Both the position numbers and the translations under genes were made by a program. DNA of 29,972 bases from a virus: positions 1 through 29,972 of the IMG/VR virus record IMGVR_UViG_3300033148_002226; one strand, given 5' to 3'. The notes beneath the pieces were generated by a model. That model was given only the letters and a program-made list of their open reading frames with translations, was not told where the DNA came from and made no database searches. Position 1 is the stretch's first letter; the number at the start of each line of letters is the position of its first letter. Shown piece after piece: positions 1 to 19,593 of this stretch.

Positions 1-1188
1 GAATTGATCCTGGAAGACGCTTTTCAAGCTAAATGGGATATAGAGCTGAAGAAAGATTCACAATCTAAAAAGAAATGGTACACGTTAGAAGGCGGCGGCG
101 TGTATGCAACCTCAACAGGTGGGCAAATTACAGGTTTTGGAGCAGGTTCACTTAATGAAGATGTATTTGAAGGCGCAATCATAATTGATGATCCTATTAA
201 GCCTGAAGATGCCTCAAGTGACGTTATACGTTCAAGAATGAATGAAAGGTTCAACAACACAATCAAATCAAGAACCAACAGCAAGAAAACCCCCATTATA
301 ATCATTATGCAGCGATTACATGAAGATGATATGACAGGCTTTTTATTAGATGGTGGAAGTGAATTTGATTTCTTCCATTTAAACCTTCCAGCTATTAATG
401 AAGATGGACCGAATGAATATGATCCACGGTTTAAGGGTGAAGCGCTATGGCCACGTAAACATGATGCCCTTCAGTTAAAAGCTATGGAAGCTAAATCAAT
501 CATGACTTATGCAGGGCAATACCAGCAAAGACCTGCGCCCGCTGAAGGTAACATCATAAAGAAAGAACAGATTAAGTTCTACATGGAATTACCTAAAACG
601 ATTAACTATAAAGCGCATTCATGGGATTTCACATTTAAGAAATCTAACAATTCAGATTATGTTGTTGGTCAAGTGTGGGGACGTACAAAAGATAGGCAAG
701 ATTTTTACCTTATTGACCTTATAAGGGATAAAATGTCATTCAATGAATCACTTGAAGCAATTAAGCACCTTGCAAAGAAACACCCTGATTATAATGCGGT
801 CCTGGTGGAAGAAAAGGCAAATGGGGCGGCGATTATAGACAGTATTACCAGGGACGTTAACAGGGTAATACCTATCAACCCTGATGAATCTAAAGAAGCA
901 CGTTTTGAAGCTATGGCACCATTATTCTTTGGCGGCAATGTATATCTTCCCCACCCATCAATATGCCCATGGGTGAATATGCTTATAGATGAATTAATAA
1001 CGTTCCCAAATAGTAAACACGATGATCAATGTGATTCAATGAGTCAAGCGCTTAACTTTTTAGATATGAAAGGTTCAGGCGATTTCCCTGAATATGATAG
1101 GGATAATCAACAAGATCCATACCGTGAATCATTTTTAAAGCGTCCACACAAAAAACGTGAATCACGTATTAAGGTTAGGACCTTTTAA
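1..1188 (+). CDS. terL: Terminase large subunit, C-terminal part (5' end outside window)
   Basis: This is the motor and nuclease of DNA packaging, which pumps DNA into the prohead and cuts the concatemer. The reading frame is open from base 1, so the N-terminal ATPase part with the Walker A loop lies outside the window. Visible near the left end is a Walker B-type strand (AIIIDDPIKPEDA), then IIIIMQRLHEDD, which resembles the ATPase coupling region. The C-terminal half looks like the RNase H-fold nuclease: SWDFTF supplies the first acidic residue, LVEEKANG the second region, and KHDDQCDSM the last metal ligand. The protein ends in a basic tail. The last 27 bases overlap, tail to tail, the leftward gene at 1162-1584. 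The family call is strong; the packaging type (headful or cos) cannot be told from this fragment. Confidence 0.93.
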   Translation, partial: ELILEDAFQAKWDIELKKDSQSKKKWYTLEGGGVYATSTGGQITGFGAGSLNEDVFEGAIIIDDPIKPEDASSDVIRSRMNERFNNTIKSRTNSKKTPIIIIMQRLHEDDMTGFLLDGGSEFDFFHLNLPAINEDGPNEYDPRFKGEALWPRKHDALQLKAMEAKSIMTYAGQYQQRPAPAEGNIIKKEQIKFYMELPKTINYKAHSWDFTFKKSNNSDYVVGQVWGRTKDRQDFYLIDLIRDKMSFNESLEAIKHLAKKHPDYNAVLVEEKANGAAIIDSITRDVNRVIPINPDESKEARFEAMAPLFFGGNVYLPHPSICPWVNMLIDELITFPNSKHDDQCDSMSQALNFLDMKGSGDFPEYDRDNQQDPYRESFLKRPHKKRESRIKVRTF

Positions 1189-1584
1189 AAGATCCCAGGC
1201 TTCTAAGTACTTGCTAAATTTATGATCTTTCTTATCGGTGTAAAATCTATTCGATATGGCGGTTATTTCATGTTGTGGGATAATATAGAAAAGGTGTTCA
1301 GGCATTATGTAAATAGCAAAGAAATTAACTTCTGAAGGCGTGTAAAGGGTTTTACTGTTATTACCTTTGGCGATTGTTGCCTTGTAGCGGTTTGGTTGTT
1401 CAACACCTCTTTTAAGTAGTAAGGAATTGCAGGTTTTCACCTGGATTTTTAAAGTTTGGACACTGTTATCAATGGCAACATCATAAGGACATATAGATGA
1501 ATAAGGTAAAAGGGCAATATACCCTCTCTTTTTACAACCTAAAATAAATTCAAGCTCCCCAATATCACCAATATGTTTACTCAT
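1162..1584 (-). CDS. PD-(D/E)XK nuclease-like protein
   Basis: A 140-residue protein whose N-terminal half carries the pattern of small PD-(D/E)XK endonucleases and resolvase-like proteins. GDIGELEF gives a helix glutamate, CPYDVAID the metal-binding aspartate, and LKIQVKTC the Q-x-K pair in the right order and spacing. The C-terminal half (FFAIYIMPEHLFYIIPQHEI) looks like the beta-strand pairs often found after such cores. The natural role could be DNA processing next to packaging, a homing-type nuclease, or host DNA degradation; the sequence does not decide. No Shine-Dalgarno sequence precedes the ATG, and a good promoter places transcription start on the ATG itself. The gene converges on the terminase and overlaps its end. 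Confidence 0.72.
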   Translation of the reverse strand: MSKHIGDIGELEFILGCKKRGYIALLPYSSICPYDVAIDNSVQTLKIQVKTCNSLLLKRGVEQPNRYKATIAKGNNSKTLYTPSEVNFFAIYIMPEHLFYIIPQHEITAISNRFYTDKKDHKFSKYLEAWDLLKGPNLNT

Positions 1585-1619
1585 CAGTTAATTAGATAGG
1601 TAAGGTTCTAAGGTGTCAA
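1585..1619 (-). promoter_or_regulatory. Sigma-70-type promoter of the nuclease-like gene, apparently leaderless
   Basis: On the minus strand TTGACA (1619-1614) is followed after exactly 17 bases by TCTAAT (1596-1591). Counting from the -10 box, +1 falls on position 1584, the A of the ATG of the gene at 1162-1584. There is no purine-rich ribosome binding site in the preceding 15 bases, whereas neighbouring genes have AAAGG-type sites. This agrees with a leaderless messenger. Confidence 0.6.
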
Positions 1620-1625
1620 ATATTC

Positions 1626-1672
1626 CTTATACGGAATTTAGTATAAATAGTACTTATACGGAATTTAGTATA
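1626..1672. repeat. Two tandem 20-bp repeats, likely regulator binding sites
   Basis: CTTATACGGAATTTAGTATA occurs at 1626-1645 and again, identical, at 1653-1672, a period of 27 bases. Each copy contains the inverted arms TATAC and GTATA around an 8-base centre. The pair lies just upstream of the -35 box of the leftward promoter at 1591-1619, where activator sites are often found. The second copy runs into the 3' end of the gene at 1665-1856. Confidence 0.75.
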
Positions 1673-1856
1673 TAGTTTCATCATCTGTAAAATAATTAAG
1701 CTCACCTTTTGGAGAGTAACCACAAGCCTTAATAAAATCATCCATGTATTCTAACAAATCACTAAGCGAGTCAACGTCATCAAGGTTAAACGTAATAGTG
1801 CTTACATCAAATTCATTTTCTAGTTTTGGTTTTTTGATAAATGTATAGTTACTCAT
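1665..1856 (-). CDS. Small acidic hypothetical protein
   Basis: A 63-residue acidic protein that I do not recognise. The middle (STITFNLDDVDSLSDLLEYMDDF) is rich in Asp and Leu and probably helical; the C-terminal end has GYSPKGELNYF. The ATG directly follows the TAA of the upstream gene (TAAATG), so the two are very likely translationally coupled. The stop codon lies inside the second of the tandem 20-bp repeats. It is the last gene of a three-gene leftward run (2440 to 1665). No signal peptide or membrane segment is visible. Confidence 0.6.
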   Translation of the reverse strand: MSNYTFIKKPKLENEFDVSTITFNLDDVDSLSDLLEYMDDFIKACGYSPKGELNYFTDDETIY

Positions 1857-2108
1857 TTACTCACCACCTTTCATTATCTTTTTACTCAAAATCTGTGCTC
1901 TATATTTATATCTCGATTCAACATGAGATACCGAGCAATCGTCTATAAACTCTTGTGCCTCTTTTAATAGAGCTTTGATGTTTCTGTTTTCGTGACTTAA
2001 CTCGTCTATACGCTTAAAAAGTTTATCGTAGTTCTCTGCTTCTTCTTTTTTCAAGTACGTTTTCAGTCGTCTATATCTTTGCGTTAAAGCAAATAATGCA
2101 TCACTCAT
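1857..2108 (-). CDS. Small coiled-coil hypothetical protein
   Basis: An 83-residue, charged, mainly helical protein. The stretch from YRRLKTYLKKEEAENYDKL to LKEAQEFID has heptad-like spacing of Leu/Ile and probably forms a coiled coil. The C-terminus is basic (KIMKGGE). The ATG overlaps the stop of the upstream gene by four bases (ATGA), and its own stop abuts the next ATG, so it sits in a tightly coupled three-gene set. Function unknown. Small coiled-coil proteins of this kind are common in phage early regions; nothing specific can be claimed. Confidence 0.6.
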   Translation of the reverse strand: MSDALFALTQRYRRLKTYLKKEEAENYDKLFKRIDELSHENRNIKALLKEAQEFIDDCSVSHVESRYKYRAQILSKKIMKGGE

Positions 2109-2440
2109 CCCTCTAACTCCGTAATTGCCTTTGCTGTTGCGTGTGCTGCTGCTTGTTGGATTGTGGGCTTTTTTGAAAAATGTTCACATCCATATAAGCT
2201 ATCGTAAAAACCCGCCGCTCGAGCGTCAGAATACGTAGACATGCAAAGATGAATTATATCAGACTCCAACTTCTCCCAAACAGGTACAAGTGCGTCTAAT
2301 GATTTTGTGTACACTTCTTTGAAGCTTCCATTGTGGTCTACCAGTCTACAGTATGGTTGCTTTTTATCCCAACTTGTTACAGTTTCTAGTCTGCTCCCCA
2401 TAAACTCCGCAATGATTTTATTTACTTCTTCGTTAGTCAT
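2105..2440 (-). CDS. Hypothetical early protein, ABA-sandwich-like
   Basis: A 111-residue protein. The segment CRLVDHNGSFKEVYTKSLDALVPVWEKLE followed by a C-terminal helix (IQQAAAHATAKAITELEG) resembles the small phage ABA-sandwich family, in which a strand region and a 'dalw.v.ekl' helix are followed by an 'aicraalkav' helix. This is recognition by eye and remains tentative. Translation starts at the ATG preceded by AAAGGA five bases upstream. It is the first gene of a three-gene unit and lies just downstream of the hairpin at 2463-2486. Confidence 0.6.
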   Translation of the reverse strand: MTNEEVNKIIAEFMGSRLETVTSWDKKQPYCRLVDHNGSFKEVYTKSLDALVPVWEKLESDIIHLCMSTYSDARAAGFYDSLYGCEHFSKKPTIQQAAAHATAKAITELEG

Positions 2441-2462
2441 CTCATTCCTTTATTATTTTAAA

Positions 2463-2486
2463 ACACGATAAGAAACCTTATAGTGT
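2463..2486 (-). terminator. Hairpin, probable terminator of the structured RNA unit
   Basis: On the minus strand ACACTATAAG, loop GTTT, CTTATCGTGT form a 10-bp stem with one mismatch, followed by TTTTAAAAT. The T-run is short, so termination may be partial. It stands between the structured RNA candidate (2502-2716) and the ribosome binding site of the gene at 2105-2440. Its descending arm TTTCTTATCGTGT is repeated in the hairpin at 2892-2909. Confidence 0.5.
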
Positions 2487-2501
2487 ATTAGATTTAAAAA
2501 T

Positions 2502-2716
2502 AAGGCGGGTGGGAATTGCACCCACTTAGCTATGTTACCCTTGACTACTCAACCACATTCATCAAGTTACCCTACAACTGCAATTCTCACCTTTAATTGG
2601 CGTGCTTACCGCCCAGTGACGAGACAACCCGTAAGTTTTATCACTAAAACTATCTCGCTTTCAGTTTCTAGCTATGTGTAGGTAATCATGTGCTTCACTG
2701 TCAGCACCGCCGCCCC
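2502..2716 (-). ncRNA. Candidate structured non-coding RNA, unknown family
   Basis: No credible gene covers this stretch, but on the minus strand it folds well. The ends pair as GGGGCGG (2716-2710) with CCGCCTT (2508-2502). Inside are hairpin GTGCT/AGCAC (2707-2703 with 2694-2690), whose loop CAGTGA (2700-2695) can pair with TCACTG (2619-2614) as a pseudoknot; stem CGAGA/TCTCG (2657-2653 with 2624-2620) enclosing a perfect 7-bp hairpin with a GTGA tetraloop (2651-2634); hairpin GGCG/CGCC (2613-2610 with 2602-2599); and either a 13-bp helix with one mismatch (2591-2579 with 2520-2508) or a T-arm-like hairpin at 2525-2509. A GNRA tetraloop, a pseudoknot and paired ends are typical of real structured RNAs. 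A free RNA or a leader of the downstream genes are both possible. It is not tmRNA, RNase P RNA or a riboswitch that I recognise. Confidence 0.6.
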
Positions 2717-2727
2717 TTTATTATTTC

Positions 2728-2865
2728 AATACATATACATACATTAACTTCTAATAATACAATTATGTATGTATACAAAATAAACCCAATTATTTCATAT
2801 ACTTGTTATAATACGTTCAAATACATAAACATACATTTAGCTATATTTGAGCAATAACTTCTAAT
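2728..2865. promoter_or_regulatory. Duplicated AT-rich regulatory block upstream of the structured RNA
   Basis: AATACATATACATACATT at 2728-2745 recurs at 2820-2837 with one change (17 of 18 identical). Each copy is followed by TAACTTCTAAT (2745-2755 and 2855-2865). An inverted relative, ATTATGTATGTATAC, lies at 2762-2776. The block fills the space between the hairpin at 2892-2909 and the RNA candidate at 2716, where its promoter should lie. -10-like boxes exist (for example TATAAC on the minus strand around 2810), but I cannot choose one with confidence. The TACATAC core also occurs in the inverted repeat at 15995-16017. Confidence 0.5.
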
Positions 2866-2891
2866 TTATACATTCACTTAAATCTAATACA

Positions 2892-2909
2892 CGATAAGAA
2901 ATATTATCG
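2892..2909 (-). terminator. Weak hairpin after the small gene at 2911-3066
   Basis: CGATAA, a six-base loop and TTATCG form a short perfect stem directly behind the stop codon of the leftward gene ending at 2911. There is no good T-run, so this is a weak terminator or an RNA end signal at most. On the minus strand it continues as TGTATTAGATTTAA; its complement lies next to the hairpin at 2463-2486. Confidence 0.35.
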
Positions 2910-2910
2910 A

Positions 2911-3066
2911 CTATTGACCTTTTACCTTAACGCTTAAGACTTTAAGGTCACAAACCATATCAAGCTTATCTGTGAACCACCTAGTGTCTTGTAGGTTCTT
3001 GCAACCATTGAGGGTAACTTTTCTATGTATCCCGTCAATTGTTATATTTAATATAAGATCCATCAT
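2911..3066 (-). CDS. Small hypothetical protein (51 aa)
   Basis: A short gene starting MMDLILNITIDG and ending LSVKVKGQ. The alternating hydrophobic pattern of the first and last parts suggests a small beta-rich fold (strand, IHRKVTLNGC turn and strand, helix DTRWFTDKLDMV, final strand). It has a strong AAAGGA ribosome binding site. There are two adjacent ATG codons; the second stands six bases from AAAGGA and is the better spaced. It is the fourth gene of the leftward run that begins at 3722, 12 bases after its upstream neighbour. Function not recognised. Confidence 0.55.
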   Translation of the reverse strand: MMDLILNITIDGIHRKVTLNGCKNLQDTRWFTDKLDMVCDLKVLSVKVKGQ

Positions 3067-3078
3067 CCATCCTTTGTA

Positions 3079-3228
3079 TTATTTCTCGTACTCAGATAAT
3101 TCCGATTGAATCTTATTTAACCTAGAATTATTTGATTCAATCTCGTTCTCAAGCTTCCTGTTCTCAACTTCAATCTCATCTCTCTCTGTTTTTAAACATT
3201 CTATTTCGTAACTAAACTTACTCATCAT
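3079..3228 (-). CDS. Small coiled-coil hypothetical protein (49 aa)
   Basis: A 49-residue protein that is almost entirely one amphipathic, highly charged helix (YEIECLKTERDEIEVENRKL, then ENEIESNNSRLNKIQ). Leu/Ile recur at heptad spacing, so it probably dimerises as a coiled coil. It has the same start region as two neighbours: AAAGGATGG followed by a double ATG. It lies 12 bases upstream of the gene at 2911-3066 and 22 bases downstream of the gene at 3251-3454. Function unknown. Confidence 0.55.
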   Translation of the reverse strand: MMSKFSYEIECLKTERDEIEVENRKLENEIESNNSRLNKIQSELSEYEK

Positions 3229-3250
3229 CCATCCTTTATATTATCGACTA

Positions 3251-3454
3251 TTAGCTCAAGCTTATCAGTGTCTTAGAATCAATATTCATATTCCTTATCT
3301 CTAAACATTTAACTTCATCTACAGGTATTCCATTCTCCTCCATACAGTCGATTATATGTTGCTTAGCTTCTTTTTTGTTTCTAGCAAATGAGTAAAGATC
3401 GCAACAATAACTATGTCCATAAACTATTATATATTTTATTTTCCTATCCATCAT
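3251..3454 (-). CDS. Small hypothetical protein (67 aa)
   Basis: A 67-residue protein starting MMDRKIKYIIVYGHSYCCDL. The pattern strand (KYIIVYG), helix (RNKKEAKQHIIDCMEENG), strand (VKCLEIRNM) suggests a small alpha/beta fold. Two cysteines are adjacent (CC), with others later. It has the shared AAAGGATGG ribosome binding site and double ATG. It lies in the leftward run between the HTH-like gene (3513-3722) and the coiled-coil gene. I do not recognise a family. Confidence 0.58.
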   Translation of the reverse strand: MMDRKIKYIIVYGHSYCCDLYSFARNKKEAKQHIIDCMEENGIPVDEVKCLEIRNMNIDSKTLISLS

Positions 3455-3512
3455 CCATCCTTTATAGTTTCGCCTATAGGCTAATTAAAATCATATTAAT
3501 TTCGTAGCTAGG

Positions 3513-3722
3513 CTATAATTTATCACCTTTTTCAAGTGTAACAATAACCGTCTTTCTAACGTTGAACGTCAATTCATGTTCACTTAACCCCGATTTCCTT
3601 ATTGCCTTAAATTTCTTAGATAATTGACCTCTTGGGATACCGTGAACAGTTGCCGCTTCTGATAAAGTTTTAAACCTTGTTCCATTTACTGTAATGCCTA
3701 CACTTTTCTTTTTTCCAAACAT
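3513..3722 (-). CDS. Small HTH-like protein, possible regulator
   Basis: A 69-residue basic protein. The start is the ATG of MFGKKKSVG, preceded by AAAAGGTGG; the frame is open further upstream, but that part has no ribosome binding site and contains the palindrome at 3801-3818. The segment FKTLSEAATVHGIPRGQLSKKFK has the layout of the small helix-turn-helix found in NUMOD1-type modules: a 'sisEAA' helix, a turn at HGIPRG and a recognition-like helix. DNA binding is therefore likely but not proven. It is the promoter-proximal gene of the leftward cluster, which would fit a transcriptional regulator acting on its own promoter. C-terminal strands (VRKTVIVTLEKG) follow. Confidence 0.6.
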   Translation of the reverse strand: MFGKKKSVGITVNGTRFKTLSEAATVHGIPRGQLSKKFKAIRKSGLSEHELTFNVRKTVIVTLEKGDKL

Positions 3723-3771
3723 AAATTTTCCACCTTTTCGATAGATTGAAGCTACACGAGTTTTGGTTAAA

Positions 3772-3818
3772 AGTATATAGACCTGGTAAAACATTCTTAT
3801 TGCCAAAAACTTTTGGCA
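3772..3818 (-). promoter_or_regulatory. Leftward early promoter with a perfect 18-bp palindrome
   Basis: TATACT on the minus strand (3777-3772) is a good -10 box about 50 bases before the start at 3722. The expected -35 region (3800-3795) is poor. Immediately upstream lies TGCCAAAA-AC-TTTTGGCA (3801-3818), with perfect 8-base arms and a 2-base centre. A weak -35 next to a palindrome suggests an activator site or an operator. Transcription from here would read the whole leftward run down to 2911. Confidence 0.5.
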
Positions 3819-3874
3819 CTTTCGGGGCATTTCCAACCATTTTTAATATTTAACCTTTTGTAAGTGGTTGGATT

Positions 3875-3903
3875 TTAGTTAGGTACGTACAAAAGCATAT
3901 AAT
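3875..3903 (+). promoter_or_regulatory. Promoter of the lipoprotein gene
   Basis: TATAAT at 3898-3903, 17 bases after TTAGTT (3875-3880, a weak -35). The short palindrome GTACGTAC (3883-3890) lies in the spacer. Transcription would start near 3910, giving a leader of about 20 bases with AAAGGGG at 3918-3924 and the ATG at 3930. Confidence 0.6.
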
Positions 3904-3929
3904 TTATTTAACAAAACAAAGGGGAAAAT

Positions 3930-4451
3930 ATGAAAACACTTATCATCTTAATAACGATTTTAACTTTGGTATCTTGTGAACAAGGCGGTGAATCAGGTTC
4001 TTCAAGTGCTGGTTCTTCTTCACCTAAAAACGTTAGTGATGTTGTTCAGAATGAACCTAGTGTGGTCCTGGACATACAAGATGGAACATACAAAACGGCT
4101 TGTTTCTTAGAAGGCGGCGAAACTGTTTATTATACAATTCAGATCAGCAATTATGAACTGACATTCAGTAAAACCGTTGCAACCAATTCCAACTGCAATG
4201 AAGGTATCAAATCAATCTTATCATCTAAATATGATGTTGTAGGTAACGAACTTGAATATGACGTTACGAATTATTATTACCTAAGTGTTTCAGGTGGCGA
4301 TTATATTTGTAATGAATCAGGTCAACTAAGTGGGAACACTTATGATGTTTCAAACGTTAATTGTTCAGATGTTAACAACCATAAAAATTATGAAGTTACT
4401 CAAGATTCAAACGGTGATTGGCTTATTAACGGAAAAACTTTTACACTTTAA
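3930..4451 (+). CDS. Lipoprotein, moron-like
   Basis: A 173-residue protein with a clear lipoprotein signal: MKT, hydrophobic LIILITILTL, then lipobox LVSC with Cys16. A Ser/Gly-rich linker (GGESGSSSAGSSS) follows, as in proteins tethered to the outer membrane. The rest is beta-rich and has several cysteines that could form disulfides in the periplasm. It has its own promoter and hairpin and stands alone between a leftward cluster and the head genes, the usual setting of phage morons. Some phage lipoproteins of this kind block receptors and prevent superinfection. That role is inference from context; no family is recognised. Confidence 0.75.
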   Translation: MKTLIILITILTLVSCEQGGESGSSSAGSSSPKNVSDVVQNEPSVVLDIQDGTYKTACFLEGGETVYYTIQISNYELTFSKTVATNSNCNEGIKSILSSKYDVVGNELEYDVTNYYYLSVSGGDYICNESGQLSGNTYDVSNVNCSDVNNHKNYEVTQDSNGDWLINGKTFTL

Positions 4452-4461
4452 TATTCCCCAA

Positions 4462-4487
4462 AACTGTTTTGAAGGATTAAAACAGTT
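4462..4487 (+). terminator. Hairpin after the lipoprotein gene
   Basis: AACTGTTTT (4462-4470), an 8-base loop and AAAACAGTT (4479-4487) form a perfect 9-bp stem ten bases after the stop codon. There is no T-run behind it, so it may terminate weakly or mainly protect the messenger. Confidence 0.45.
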
Positions 4488-4535
4488 CATTTCAAAACCT
4501 GCCAAATAACACGAGGCAGCATACCATTAAAATAA

Positions 4536-4570
4536 AAATTGTACATTTCCATCTATAAATTTTACAATTT
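4536..4570 (+). promoter_or_regulatory. Inverted repeat in the leader of the head operon
   Basis: AAATTGTA (4536-4543) and TACAATTT (4563-4570) are perfect 8-base arms around 19 bases that include TATAAA (4554-4559). The late head operon probably starts here, but no convincing -35 box is visible, so a phage-specific activator or a nonstandard sigma factor is possible. The rest of 4452-4621 holds only the hairpin above and the AGGGG ribosome binding site before 4622. Confidence 0.35.
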
Positions 4571-4621
4571 GTTCCTTTAAGTATTTAATTAAAGTTGTGA
4601 TGAACTTTTTAGGGGCAATAG

Positions 4622-6838
4622 ATGGCTGAAGGCGATTTTCAAGAAAAATCTAACAATGAAGAAGTTAAAGCAAACTATACAGCCAAAGGGCTTTCTGGAA
4701 CATTTGTAACTGGTAACATCATTCAAGATGATTACCTTAGTGAACTTATTGGTGTCGAAGGACAAAAACAATACGTTAAAATGTCAAAATCTGATGCACA
4801 AATCAGAAAGCTAATGCACGCAGTAAACAACCCAATTAAGTCAGCCGATTGGGCAATAGAACCTGCTTCAGATGAAAAAGTGGATATAGAGCAAGCCGCT
4901 TTAATGGAACAAATTCTTTTCAAAGATATTGAAGGCGGTTGGGCGGCAAAGCTTGATGAGATATTAACTTTTCCCTGGCAAGGTCATTCAGTATTTGAAA
5001 TCATTCATAAAAATAGACAATCAAAAACATTTGGACCTTATACAGGTTTAGAAAATCTTGCCTGGAGAGATCAAACAACACTTACAAAGTGGGATTTCCA
5101 GAATGGAAGATTAAAGAGAGTATACCAGGAACAATCTGGTGAACTTGAAGTTAATGCTTGGTTAGAATCTGATACGTTATTAACTTTTTACAATGAGAAA
5201 AAGGGAAATGATAACGGATTTGCATTCCTTAGAATGTTATACGGAAATTACAAAAGAAAATTATTATATAAACAACTTCAAGCGATTGGAATGGAAAGGG
5301 CGGCAATAGCGGTTCCGCATTTGGAACTTCCACAAGGTGTTCCATATGATTCTGATGAAGCAACAAACGCTGAAAATCAATTAAGAGCTTTTACACTTGC
5401 TGAAACTGCTTACTTCATAACGCCATATGGTTATAAACTTAATTACAATAATACTGGTAATTTTGATCCTGCAAGGGCGCAAGTTGCTATAAAAGCGGAA
5501 AATGAAGAAATTGCAGGTTCACTTATTGGTATGTGGCTTGAAATGGGAATTGGTGGAAATTCAGGGAACCAGGCGGGAACTGGAATCAGCGCTGAATTCT
5601 TTAAAGATGGAATCGAGTATATAGCGGATAAGATTTCAAGTGCTATAAATTTAAGATTAATTCCAAACTTAATGGCTTTAAACTTTGGTGAAGTTGAAAA
5701 CCTTCCAAAGCTTAGACATTCTGGAATAGCTGATGAAGCTGGAAAAGAATTAATGGAAATCGTAACAGGTTATTCAACTGCGGGAATCATAACACCTGAT
5801 GAACCTTTAGAAGATCATATCAGAAAAACGCACAACCTTCCAAAGAAGGCTGAAGGTGAAATGCTAGAAAATAAAAAAGCTTCTGATGAAACCCCAGGTA
5901 AAGAAAAGCCTGAAGAAGCGCCTCAACCTAAAAAAGATGAAGAAGATAAAGAACTTTCTGAAAAAGATAATGTTATTGAGCTTGCTTCAAAGTCAACACC
6001 TAAAACTCTTATTGATGAACAAAGTGCTAAGACAAAAAGTGTTATTGTATCAGGTTTGGAATTTGTTAAAACCAAATACATTAAAGACGTGATGAACAAA
6101 TACAAGCAATTACCTGATAATAAGAAACAAAACGCAACAACTAAAATAACTTTGGGCGGTGTTAAAGACTTAAACAAGAAGATTAAAAAGTCTTTAGTTG
6201 AAACAACTTTCAAAGCTATTGACCAGGCGAAAAGTGAAGTTCCATCTAGAAAAGATATTTCACTTAAAACAACTGAAGAAGATATGATTCGCCTAAACTT
6301 TAAAGGTGATGAAATTAAACTTAATGAGCAATCGAAATTGCCTACACATATGCAAATTTTACTTTCTAAGCAAGCGCAGTTAATGGCTGAAAATGCTTCC
6401 AATGAATTAAAGAAAAGAATAGATTTCAAGTTCAGCGGTATGGAAGTTAAAACAAATGCTGAAGATAGTATCAAGCAAGCTTTGGAAGATGAAGCGGATA
6501 AATACATTGATTCACCTGTTATAGGTGTTCAAGCAACAAACGCGAATGCATTGTTTGTTAATGAATCAAGAAATTCATTTTTCAATGATGAAGATGTAAT
6601 TGATGAAATACATTCATTTACTTTTGTAAATATAGCACCTAAATCAGCGATTTGTAGGGAATTAGCAGGAACAACTTTTAAAACAAATGATGTTGATTCA
6701 CTTAGATATTCGCCGCCGCTTCACCATAATTGTAAATCATACCTTAGAGCAAATTTAAAAGTTTCTAAGGGTGTTGATAAAATAGAAGTGTCGAGTTTAT
6801 CGCCTAGCGCTGAAGCGAAAAAGAGTATAACGTTATGA
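4622..6838 (+). CDS. Portal protein (DUF935/Mu gp29-like) fused to MuF/gp7-type head domain
   Basis: A 738-residue protein. Residues 1 to about 410 match the Mu gp29-type portal: early RKLMHAVNNPIKSADWAIEPA, then LAWRDQTTLTKWDF, FLRMLYGNYKRKLLYKQ, and IAGSLIGMWLEMG. This part should form the dodecameric DNA gate of the prohead. A Lys/Glu/Pro-rich linker follows at about 410-450. The C-terminal 100 residues look like the MuF/SPP1 gp7-type head morphogenesis domain, with AICRELAGTTF and PPLHHNCKSYL near residues 697-708. In Mu and SPP1 these are two proteins; here they form one chain. The start at 4622 has AGGGG six bases upstream. The stop overlaps the ATG of the next small gene. Confidence 0.88.
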   Translation: MAEGDFQEKSNNEEVKANYTAKGLSGTFVTGNIIQDDYLSELIGVEGQKQYVKMSKSDAQIRKLMHAVNNPIKSADWAIEPASDEKVDIEQAALMEQILFKDIEGGWAAKLDEILTFPWQGHSVFEIIHKNRQSKTFGPYTGLENLAWRDQTTLTKWDFQNGRLKRVYQEQSGELEVNAWLESDTLLTFYNEKKGNDNGFAFLRMLYGNYKRKLLYKQLQAIGMERAAIAVPHLELPQGVPYDSDEATNAENQLRAFTLAETAYFITPYGYKLNYNNTGNFDPARAQVAIKAENEEIAGSLIGMWLEMGIGGNSGNQAGTGISAEFFKDGIEYIADKISSAINLRLIPNLMALNFGEVENLPKLRHSGIADEAGKELMEIVTGYSTAGIITPDEPLEDHIRKTHNLPKKAEGEMLENKKASDETPGKEKPEEAPQPKKDEEDKELSEKDNVIELASKSTPKTLIDEQSAKTKSVIVSGLEFVKTKYIKDVMNKYKQLPDNKKQNATTKITLGGVKDLNKKIKKSLVETTFKAIDQAKSEVPSRKDISLKTTEEDMIRLNFKGDEIKLNEQSKLPTHMQILLSKQAQLMAENASNELKKRIDFKFSGMEVKTNAEDSIKQALEDEADKYIDSPVIGVQATNANALFVNESRNSFFNDEDVIDEIHSFTFVNIAPKSAICRELAGTTFKTNDVDSLRYSPPLHHNCKSYLRANLKVSKGVDKIEVSSLSPSAEAKKSITL

Positions 6839-16790: not shown

Positions 16791-19593
16791 TAATAGTTTA
16801 ACAATTAAAATTAATGGTTCGGCAAAAGATTTTTTGTTTGAACTTGATAAGGTTCAAAAGAAAACACGTGAAACCGAAAAGATTTTAAAAGCCACAGGAA
16901 AAGCAGCGGCCGTTGCGTTTGCTGGTTTTGCAGCTTCCATTGCTGTTGTGACCAAAGCATTTATAGATTATGAAACCGCTTTGGTTGGTGTTGGAAAGAC
17001 AACAAATATTGAAGGTAAAAAATTAGAAGAATTTGGAAAGCAGTTCCAAAAGTTATCACAGGAAATTCCAGTTTCAACAAATGAGTTATTGGGAATCGCA
17101 CAAGCCGCTGGACAATTGGGCGTAACTGGTGAAAAGAACCTGGTAAAGTTCACAAAAACGATCGCCAAATTAGGTGTCGCAACGGATCTTTCTGGTGAAC
17201 AAGCGGCAACACAATTAACAAGAATATTAAACGTAACCAATGAAGGCATTGAAACAATCGACACCTTTGGTTCAGTTATCGTTGCTTTAGGAAATAACTT
17301 TGCAGCAACGGAATCTGAAATTGTTAAAGTGACAAATGAAGTTGCTAGATCAACCGCGGTTTTCGGTGTTAGTTCTGCGCAAGCCGCTGGACTTGCAACA
17401 GCTTTAAAATCTGTTGGTATTCAAGCCCAATTAGGTGGTTCGGTTGTTGGTAAATCATTTCTAAAGATCCAAAAAGCAATTGACGGTGGTGGTAAGAAAT
17501 TACAACTTATTTCACAGTTAACAGGTATAGCGGGTAAAGATCTTAAGAAAACTTTTGAAGAAGATGCAACTGGAACTTTTCAAAAGTTTGTTGAAGGGCT
17601 TGGAAATTTAGAAGGCGGAACATCTGCTGTTTTTACTCAACTTGAGGCGCTAGGTTTAAAGGGTGAAGAAGTTAACAAAGTTCTTCCAGTTCTTGCTAAA
17701 AATTCCCAATTGGTTGGTAAGGCTTTAAATTTAGCAGCTGAAGAAACAAAAAATGCAACAGCTTTAAATGCTGAAGCTGAAAAAGCTTATGCAACTTTGG
17801 GAAGTGAAAAACAAAAATTAATTAATACTGCCACAAATTTAGCGGTTCTGATAGGTAAAGAACTGGCGCCAACTATAAAAGCAATAATTGTTGATACAAG
17901 AAAATTCCTTCAAAGGGTGTCCGAACTTGATAAAGGTTTAGTTCAGCAAATCGCCACGTTCCTAAAATGGGGCGCGATTATATCCAGTGTTGTTGCTGGA
18001 ATTGCGGCATTTGGTTTGGCGGCAATCAAGATTTCAGGAATCATAGGTGCTTTAATAACAACATTCACTGGCGCAACACTGGCGGCAGGAACGTTTTGGG
18101 CGGCGGTAACAGGACCAATTGGAATTGCGGTTGCAGGGATCGTTGCGCTTGGTGCAGGTGTTGGTTTTTTATATGAGAAATTAAGAGGTGACGGTAATGA
18201 AGGAAAGACACTTGACCAAATAACAGACAAGCTTGAAAAGGTAAGGAAGAAACGTGAACAGATAGCAAATCAACCAGATGTTGGTTTTGTAAAAAATGAA
18301 AAACAGTTAAAAGATTTAGATGATCAAATAAAAAAGCTGGAAGAATTAAGAAAACAAAAATTAAAAACCGCCAATTTAGAATCTGATGGATCAATATTAT
18401 TTAGACCTGAAGCAGATAAAGGTGTGAATCTAGGCGCTTCAGCTTTTGGACTTCCTGAACAAGTTGAATTCCCTTTAAGACCTGTTGAAGAAACACCTGA
18501 AGTGGATAAAGCCGCTGAAGCTGAAAAGAGAAAACAAATAAAAATTGCAGCGGCCGTTGATGAAGCTGCACAAAAAAGAATTGAAAAACAAAAACAACTG
18601 AATGCTGAACTGTTAGCGTTACAAGCTGCAAGTGATGGCGAAGTCCTGGAAGTTGATAAAAAGAACGCAGTTAGGCGCCAGGAAATTGAAAACGAATTTG
18701 CCGCTGCTAGGAGAATTAAAAACGCTGAAGAACGTGAACTTGCTATTGCAAATCTTCAACTTAAACACCAGCAAGAACTTGATGAAATCGCCGCCCTTGA
18801 TGCAACCAAAGATGAAAGGCAACAAGCGGCAAATGAAAGACGTGTGGAGCTTAACAAAGCTCTACGTGATTTGGAAGTTGAACAAAGAGAACTTTTCACT
18901 GAAGAAGATTTTGCAGCTTTAGAAGAAAAGATCCTTTTGGAAGAAGAAATTATTCAAGCCCAGGCGCAAAAAGAAGCCGATAGAAAAATCGAAGAAAGAA
19001 ATAAGTTCCTGGAAGATGAAATTACATTAGGAACAAATCTTGCCAAAGCTAAAGCGATTTTCAGGACTGAAGAACTTAAAGGTGTTAAAAGCGCGAACAA
19101 TCAGTTGATAGCTTTAACACAATCTAAAAATGATACACTTAAAGGAATTGGAAAAGCTGCGGCAAGTGTTAACGCTGCAATCGCAACTGGTGAAGGTGCT
19201 ATAAAAGCTTATACTTCTTTGGCGGGTATTCCTATTGTTGGACCTGCTTTAGGTGCAGCGGCGGCGGGTGCTTTAATCGCCTTTGGAGTAGAACAGCAAG
19301 GTAAAATTCTTGCCGCAAATACTGGTGGTTTAGTTCCAAGTAATTTAGGACGCGCGGGGGTTGATTCGGTTCCTGCTTCTTTAACACCTGGTGAAGTTGT
19401 TGTTCCAACGCAAAATTTTGATGAACTTATTAATTCAACAGCGGCAAGCCGTGGATTCACAAACCCTGATGAAGAAGGAACAGGAAGCCAGGGTGGAATG
19501 GTAACAGTTGCGCTTGAACCAAAAGGCGATTTCATAGACTTTATTGAACAGAAAATTGTGGAAGCAAGAATACAAAATACAGGAATATTATAA
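16783..19593 (+). CDS. Tape measure protein
   Basis: The largest gene, 936 residues. The N-terminal third has the TP901-type tape measure pattern: FIDYETALVGVGKTTNIEGKK, SQEIPVSTNELLGIAQAAGQLG, FAATESEIVKVTNEVARS and ATALKSVGIQAQLGG. Residues about 386-466 form several hydrophobic segments that could insert into the host membrane during DNA entry. A long charged coiled coil follows at about 470-780 (many EEK/QAA repeats), then a second hydrophobic patch near 813-836 and LTPGEVVVPTQNFDEL near the C-terminus, typical of the end that meets the distal tail. Length should set tail length. Confidence 0.92.
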   Translation: MADNSLTIKINGSAKDFLFELDKVQKKTRETEKILKATGKAAAVAFAGFAASIAVVTKAFIDYETALVGVGKTTNIEGKKLEEFGKQFQKLSQEIPVSTNELLGIAQAAGQLGVTGEKNLVKFTKTIAKLGVATDLSGEQAATQLTRILNVTNEGIETIDTFGSVIVALGNNFAATESEIVKVTNEVARSTAVFGVSSAQAAGLATALKSVGIQAQLGGSVVGKSFLKIQKAIDGGGKKLQLISQLTGIAGKDLKKTFEEDATGTFQKFVEGLGNLEGGTSAVFTQLEALGLKGEEVNKVLPVLAKNSQLVGKALNLAAEETKNATALNAEAEKAYATLGSEKQKLINTATNLAVLIGKELAPTIKAIIVDTRKFLQRVSELDKGLVQQIATFLKWGAIISSVVAGIAAFGLAAIKISGIIGALITTFTGATLAAGTFWAAVTGPIGIAVAGIVALGAGVGFLYEKLRGDGNEGKTLDQITDKLEKVRKKREQIANQPDVGFVKNEKQLKDLDDQIKKLEELRKQKLKTANLESDGSILFRPEADKGVNLGASAFGLPEQVEFPLRPVEETPEVDKAAEAEKRKQIKIAAAVDEAAQKRIEKQKQLNAELLALQAASDGEVLEVDKKNAVRRQEIENEFAAARRIKNAEERELAIANLQLKHQQELDEIAALDATKDERQQAANERRVELNKALRDLEVEQRELFTEEDFAALEEKILLEEEIIQAQAQKEADRKIEERNKFLEDEITLGTNLAKAKAIFRTEELKGVKSANNQLIALTQSKNDTLKGIGKAAASVNAAIATGEGAIKAYTSLAGIPIVGPALGAAAAGALIAFGVEQQGKILAANTGGLVPSNLGRAGVDSVPASLTPGEVVVPTQNFDELINSTAASRGFTNPDEEGTGSQGGMVTVALEPKGDFIDFIEQKIVEARIQNTGIL

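Follow-up and report, generated by a model that had tools for sequence, protein, structure and literature searches.

The IMG/VR virus record IMGVR_UViG_3300033148_002226 is linear and 29,972 bases long, and the whole of it, positions 1 to 29,972, is called the window here. The record is viral, and carries Mu-like head genes (terminase, Mu-type portal and gpT) together with genes for a tail tape measure protein, an amidase and a family A DNA polymerase. The same phage is present on a second IMG/VR contig with 99.98% identity across 12 kb. An accessory island of 3.4 kb (1188-4622), consisting mostly of minus-strand genes, lies between the terminase and portal genes, and within it the minus strand at 2502-2716 encodes a candidate noncoding RNA of 215 bases. 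The ends of this RNA fold on the plan of transfer RNA (tRNA) and enclose a variable domain, as indicated by a covariance model and by covariation across 58 family members. A preliminary description of the window had proposed a structured noncoding RNA at this place, GC-rich in AT-rich surroundings; indeed, the G+C content is 47% compared with 21-22% in the flanks, and no open reading frame of 60 or more codons overlaps the RNA.

The covariance model, termed R1, was built from 24 homologues and then used to screen loci. It matches the window at 2497-2718 on the minus strand with 82.1 bits (E 3.5e-18), the window sequence being among its 24 training members. The acceptor-like stem P1 is formed by GGGGCGG (2710-2716) and CCGCCTT (2502-2508) and has 7 base pairs (bp), two of which are G-U; its pairs covary in the homologues, and the pairing of both strands is retained in the 58-member alignment. 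The paired ends noted in the preliminary description are thus real. An A at 2501 occupies the discriminator position. A CG linker at 2708-2709 corresponds to tRNA positions 8 and 9, and is CG in 45 of the 58 members and CA in nine. It is followed by a D-arm-like hairpin (2690-2707) with a 5-bp stem, GTGCT/AGCAC, and the loop GACAGTGA, or GACAGUGA in RNA letters; all five pairs show compensatory change. The T-arm-like hairpin (2509-2525) has a 5-bp stem, GTGGG/CCCAC, closing the loop TGCAATT (UGCAAUU), with compensatory change at four of the five pairs and 98.9% of cells paired. At the 3' end, GTGGG-TGCAATT-CCCAC runs directly into CCGCCTT, which pairs with the 5' GGGGCGG, so that the T-arm is stacked on the acceptor stem. 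Between the two hairpins, about 165 nucleotides (nt; 2526-2689) replace the anticodon arm; this variable domain matches no other member in sequence, and only local hairpins are predicted in it.

All the elements named in the preliminary description are present in the minus-strand sequence, and several of them are not conserved in the family. The hairpin AGTTTTA-GTGA-TAAAACT at 2634-2651, with a GNRA-type loop, is a perfect 7-bp helix, but its pair probability is about 0.25 and it is not conserved. The CAGTGA/TCACTG complement proposed as a pseudoknot exists as described, and is no feature of the family, TCACTG occurring in 3 of 58 interiors where 1.35 would be expected. The 13-bp helix is likewise there, with one A-C mismatch, but it competes with the T-arm and is not conserved (longest complement 4.4 observed and 4.6 in shuffled sequences). 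The expectation that the RNA folds more stably than shuffled sequences failed, since z is -0.2 and 83 of 200 dinucleotide shuffles are at least as good. In sum, the structured noncoding RNA and its paired ends stand, but the energy argument does not, and neither the pseudoknot nor the 13-bp helix defines the RNA. The tRNA-like plan of the ends, with acceptor stem and D- and T-arm-like hairpins, had been overlooked, as had the changing middle and the presence of copies in tRNA arrays.

Because the folding energy is unremarkable, a search was made for the part of the RNA that exceeds chance. Both strands of the window were scanned for a 5-bp T-arm with T54, C56, R57 and A58 joined to a 7-bp acceptor stem; the scan was devised after the window sequence had been seen, the criteria themselves being those of tRNA. 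A single site was found, the ends of the RNA, with -17.4 kcal/mol, compared with -9.1 kcal/mol for the best of 60 window shuffles. Among 20,000 local shuffles, any match at all appeared in three, and none reached -13 kcal/mol or below. The ends share with tRNA an acceptor stem stacked on a 5-bp T-arm with a 7-nt loop.

Nineteen bases taken from the 5' hairpin led to a homologue on another phage, L089, which has the same pairing in different letters (P1 GGCAATCG/CGATTGCC, T-stem GTTGG/CCAAC). Gapped patterns linking the D- and T-arm-like loops retrieved many further homologues from IMG/VR. The family comprises at least 82 copies on at least 69 phage contig records, a few of which may represent one phage sampled twice; the 82 copies are made up of 58 in the alignment (A5), 20 from a later R1 screen and four of a variant type. 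R1 recovers copies outside its training set that the patterns had missed, including extra copies on the same phages, and gives no full-length match in 421 kb of other phage contigs. A pattern for the variant with a canonical T-loop found mostly ordinary tRNA genes and chance matches, along with two new true copies. The family is widespread in uncultured phages. Blastn, the sole search method applied to catalogued collections and one that can miss an RNA whose middle varies, found no real match to the RNA, its homologues and two consensus strings in 50,697 phage and 72,556 plasmid records; one match, H1, was attributed to chance, a second, H2, is exact over 21 bases, and the homologue L125 matched ordinary tRNA genes only. 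In bacterial genomes, a 22-base pattern hit one contig (L088), which is without the fold, and 289 genomes of the same phylum gave no match, a result of low weight. No description of the motif was found in the literature searched, although a published catalogue of candidate structured phage RNAs may list it unnamed.

The helices change with compensation in independent phages, which strongly supports a structured RNA on the minus strand; this outcome is the one that the preliminary description had required of homologues. MAFFT aligned 24 members by sequence only; in this alignment both partners vary at 17 of 18 pairs, and the covariation score is 0.781 against 0.218 +/- 0.022 in shuffled alignments (0/500) and at most 0.16 in slid controls. 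Paired cells amount to 95.1%, compared with 67.6% after shuffling and no more than 43.1% with slid partners. The 58-member alignment, which was fitted to the model, shows compensatory changes at 18 of 19 pairs and a score of 0.733 against 0.191 +/- 0.012 (0/500). The closing pair of the D-arm-like hairpin, for example, is U-A, G-C or A-U across homologues. Covarying P1, D-arm-like and T-arm-like helices around a variable middle define the new family. Rfam 15 at gathering and relaxed thresholds gave nothing credible for the window, no family reaching its gathering score, and detected only separate tRNA genes at the member loci; the preliminary description had recognised no known family either.

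The family consensus is TGACAATCG-CG-GCGTK-GACAGYGA-MACGC, the variable domain, and A-GCNGG-TGCAATT-CCNGC-CGATTGTCA. P1 mostly has 8-9 bp, the 5-bp D-stem closes an 8-nt loop, and the 5-bp T-stem closes a 7-nt loop. Four variant copies (L102, L158, L267 and L295) combine the canonical T-loop of tRNA, TTCGACT, with a GG-containing D-loop, CACGGTGA, whereas the main type has TGCAATT and GACAGTGA. Three of the four have TG at positions 8-9, where the main type has C at position 8. Positions 18 and 55, and mostly also 8, therefore switch jointly between two states, one of which is the canonical tRNA state, suggesting that the D-loop and T-loop may make a tertiary contact resembling that of tRNA. 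CACCA is encoded at the end of seven copies (L091, L199, L209, L237, L307, L102 and L295). In L102 (775-963 and 991-1148), a phage CsrA gene immediately follows a canonical-T-loop variant that encodes its CCA.

The middle of the RNA ranges from about 40 to 165 nt, is unrelated among most members, and is shared only within five small groups. Several copies on one phage have different middles. One phage (G018) has five copies, one of them weak, and another (G045) has three; paired copies, in tandem or closely spaced, occur in L092 (tandem), L158, L237, L249 and L256. The member at 3055-3253 of L125 lies within a tRNA array, and its middle holds a tRNA-like stretch of 119 nt that scores 36.2 bits and is interrupted, apparently by an insert in its own anticodon region. 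The acceptor stem and the D- and T-arm-like hairpins follow one another in tRNA order, which raises the question of whether the family is a divergent tRNA gene whose anticodon region is split by an intron or insertion, and the tRNA-like stretch in L125 could be taken in the same sense. ARAGORN at a lowered threshold does draw the window RNA as a tRNA-Thr, with an arbitrary 134-nt intron. At normal thresholds, however, neither RF00005 nor ARAGORN calls a tRNA here, intron families are without match, the linker and the loops depart from tRNA in a conserved manner, and the borders of the middle show no anticodon-stem-like helix (4.73 for the longest helix, and 4.89 in shuffled sequences), so that an interrupted tRNA has little probability. 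A remnant of a host tRNA at a phage attachment site (attP) is not supported either, because P1 covaries as a whole and the loop with G55 is not tRNA-like.

At five loci (L092, L125, L158, L202 and L194), tRNA genes lie 2-12 nt from the copies. The other copies occupy gaps mostly between co-directional genes, with 41 such neighbours upstream and 44 downstream among 60 members. In the window, the island also includes a PD-(D/E)XK endonuclease-like gene (1162-1584, minus strand) and a lipoprotein-like gene (3930-4451, plus strand). The next gene 3' of the RNA (2105-2440, minus strand) encodes 111 amino acids of no known family and is not part of the RNA. In relatives that span the terminase-portal junction, whose head protein is 62-78% identical, the portal gene follows almost directly after the terminase gene and the whole island, from 1.2 to 4.6 kb of the window, is absent. 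Two 31-bp copies, 81% alike and built around a CGATAA...TTATCG-type palindrome (2459-2489 and 2885-2915), bracket the RNA and the AT-rich region upstream of it; they look like phage repressor operator sites. The region immediately upstream of the RNA (2728-2865) consists of AT-rich imperfect repeats, AATACATAnACATACATT and CAnTAACTTCTAAT, and no sigma-70-type promoter match was found on its minus strand.

These observations lead to a plausible hypothesis, to which we assign a probability of roughly 0.6, that the family is a stable, free-standing phage noncoding RNA that is matured like tRNA and presents a copy-specific domain. The ends would adopt the tRNA elbow, made of acceptor stem, D-arm and T-arm, with the large copy-specific domain in the place of the anticodon arm. 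Host tRNA-processing enzymes would cut the RNA out of its transcript and stabilise it, RNase P acting at the 5' end and RNase Z or exonucleases at the 3' end, and this maturation may proceed either alone or from transcripts of tRNA arrays. The involvement of RNase P and RNase Z is proposed by analogy with tRNA, whose frame the ends resemble. The function would then reside in the variable domain, which might act as a decoy or bind a target.

Several observations weigh against this hypothesis. In the main type, the T-loop carries G55 instead of the pseudouridine of tRNA, and C instead of U stands at position 8. CCA is mostly not encoded, the window copy included. The invariance of the D- and T-loops is in part imposed by the search patterns; P1, the linker, the closing pair and the stems except for the G-C pairs beside the loops are free of them. 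Folding energy points to only weak structure in the interiors (mean z -0.41 +/- 0.15), most copies have no adjoining tRNA gene, and the closest phage relatives of the window, found by the head protein, are without the RNA. In addition, a gene with a Shine-Dalgarno sequence begins about 5-30 nt beyond the end of many copies, as would fit a cis-acting leader, a 5' untranslated region that includes a T-loop module and controls the next gene by riboswitch or attenuator action. UGCAA-type T-loops are also present in flavin mononucleotide (FMN) and cobalamin riboswitches; L089 gives a weak FMN match (E 0.47), and in the window a terminator-like signal was called that overlaps the T-arm. A riboswitch, however, should conserve its sensing domain, whereas in this family it is the ends that stay constant and the middle that changes. 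Several copies stand in tandem or inside tRNA arrays, the next gene in the window begins 57 nt downstream, and the downstream genes have nothing in common, encoding a Cas4-like exonuclease, a terminase, a portal protein, CsrA or a nucleotide kinase. A cis-acting leader is therefore unlikely.

If the RNA is indeed free-standing and matured like tRNA, the family may form a modular class of phage RNAs, in which a constant tRNA-like chassis would recruit the host machinery that processes or binds tRNA and would bear effector domains that can be swapped, with several of them in one phage, perhaps to serve as decoys against host defences directed at tRNA. This broader proposal is tentative. The decoy role is attractive because phage tRNAs are reported to evade such defences (PMC10264068, PMC11555353). 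The present family, found on tens of phage contigs, adds a widespread and so far unnamed RNA to phage biology, one that is easily missed, given its unconserved middle and the resemblance of its ends to tRNA fragments; the covariance model renders it directly searchable. If its ends are processed like those of tRNA, the tRNA elbow would be a general chassis for noncoding RNAs of phages, with a bearing on the role of non-tRNA transcripts from phage tRNA clusters, such as the species 1 and 2 RNAs of T4, and on the phage response to tRNA-cutting defences.

We know of no comparable family with a swapped middle. The family shares with tRNA (RF00005) the order acceptor, linker, D-arm, insert, T-arm and acceptor, and its variant copies share the canonical T-loop, GG in the D-loop and, in two cases, an encoded CCA; it differs in having a domain of about 40-165 nt for the anticodon arm, a P1 of usually 8-9 bp and different loops in the main type, and tRNA models fail on it. 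Transfer-messenger RNA (tmRNA, RF00023) has the same general plan, a large insert replacing the anticodon arm between tRNA-like ends, and a divergent tmRNA with an internal tag-coding domain might look much like this family. However, RF00023 stays below its cut-off in 50 member records, touching the T-arm of one variant copy only, ARAGORN finds no tmRNA, a real paired D-stem is present, no shared tag sequence or reading frame was noted by eye, and one phage has several differing copies, so that a tmRNA is very improbable.

The bacterial Y RNA YrlA (RF02553) is also modular, with D-, T- and acceptor-like arms, and two member phages encode a TROVE protein, which could point to an RNA partner of Ro60. 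TROVE proteins are, however, found in 2 of 46 member phages and 1 of 46 other phages, with none in the window; RF02553 misses the window RNA and reaches its cut-off in no member, and its best matches in the two TROVE phages lie outside the family copies. Moreover, in YrlA as described the Ro60-binding stem is made by the RNA ends, apart from the tRNA-like domain, whereas the ends of this family are the acceptor stem itself. A YrlA-like RNA is thus the least probable of the readings weighed here. The two TROVE phages, G003 (18021-18635, 19252-19373) and G013 (41360-42256, 45959-46092), each combine a TROVE (Ro60-like) gene with a sub-threshold YrlA-like RNA candidate 0.6-4 kb from it and distinct from the family. 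The tRNA-like structure of tymoviruses (RF00233) has a nearly identical T-arm (GGGUGCAAnUCCC) and gives a weak match (E 0.94), but the agreement is telling in the T-arm only; the acceptor of plant-virus tRNA-like structures is pseudoknotted, and such an acceptor is not seen in the family.

The stable RNAs species 1 and 2 of T4 (rnaC and rnaD), whose role is unknown (PMC3014915), are noncoding and encoded in a phage tRNA cluster. They differ from the family in that no hairpin with the GACAGUGA loop is seen in them, and R1 has no match in the T4 tRNA region. Near its 3' end, rnaC has the T-arm CCGGG-TTCGAAT-CCCGG, and in kind, T4 species 1 RNA comes closest to the family described here.
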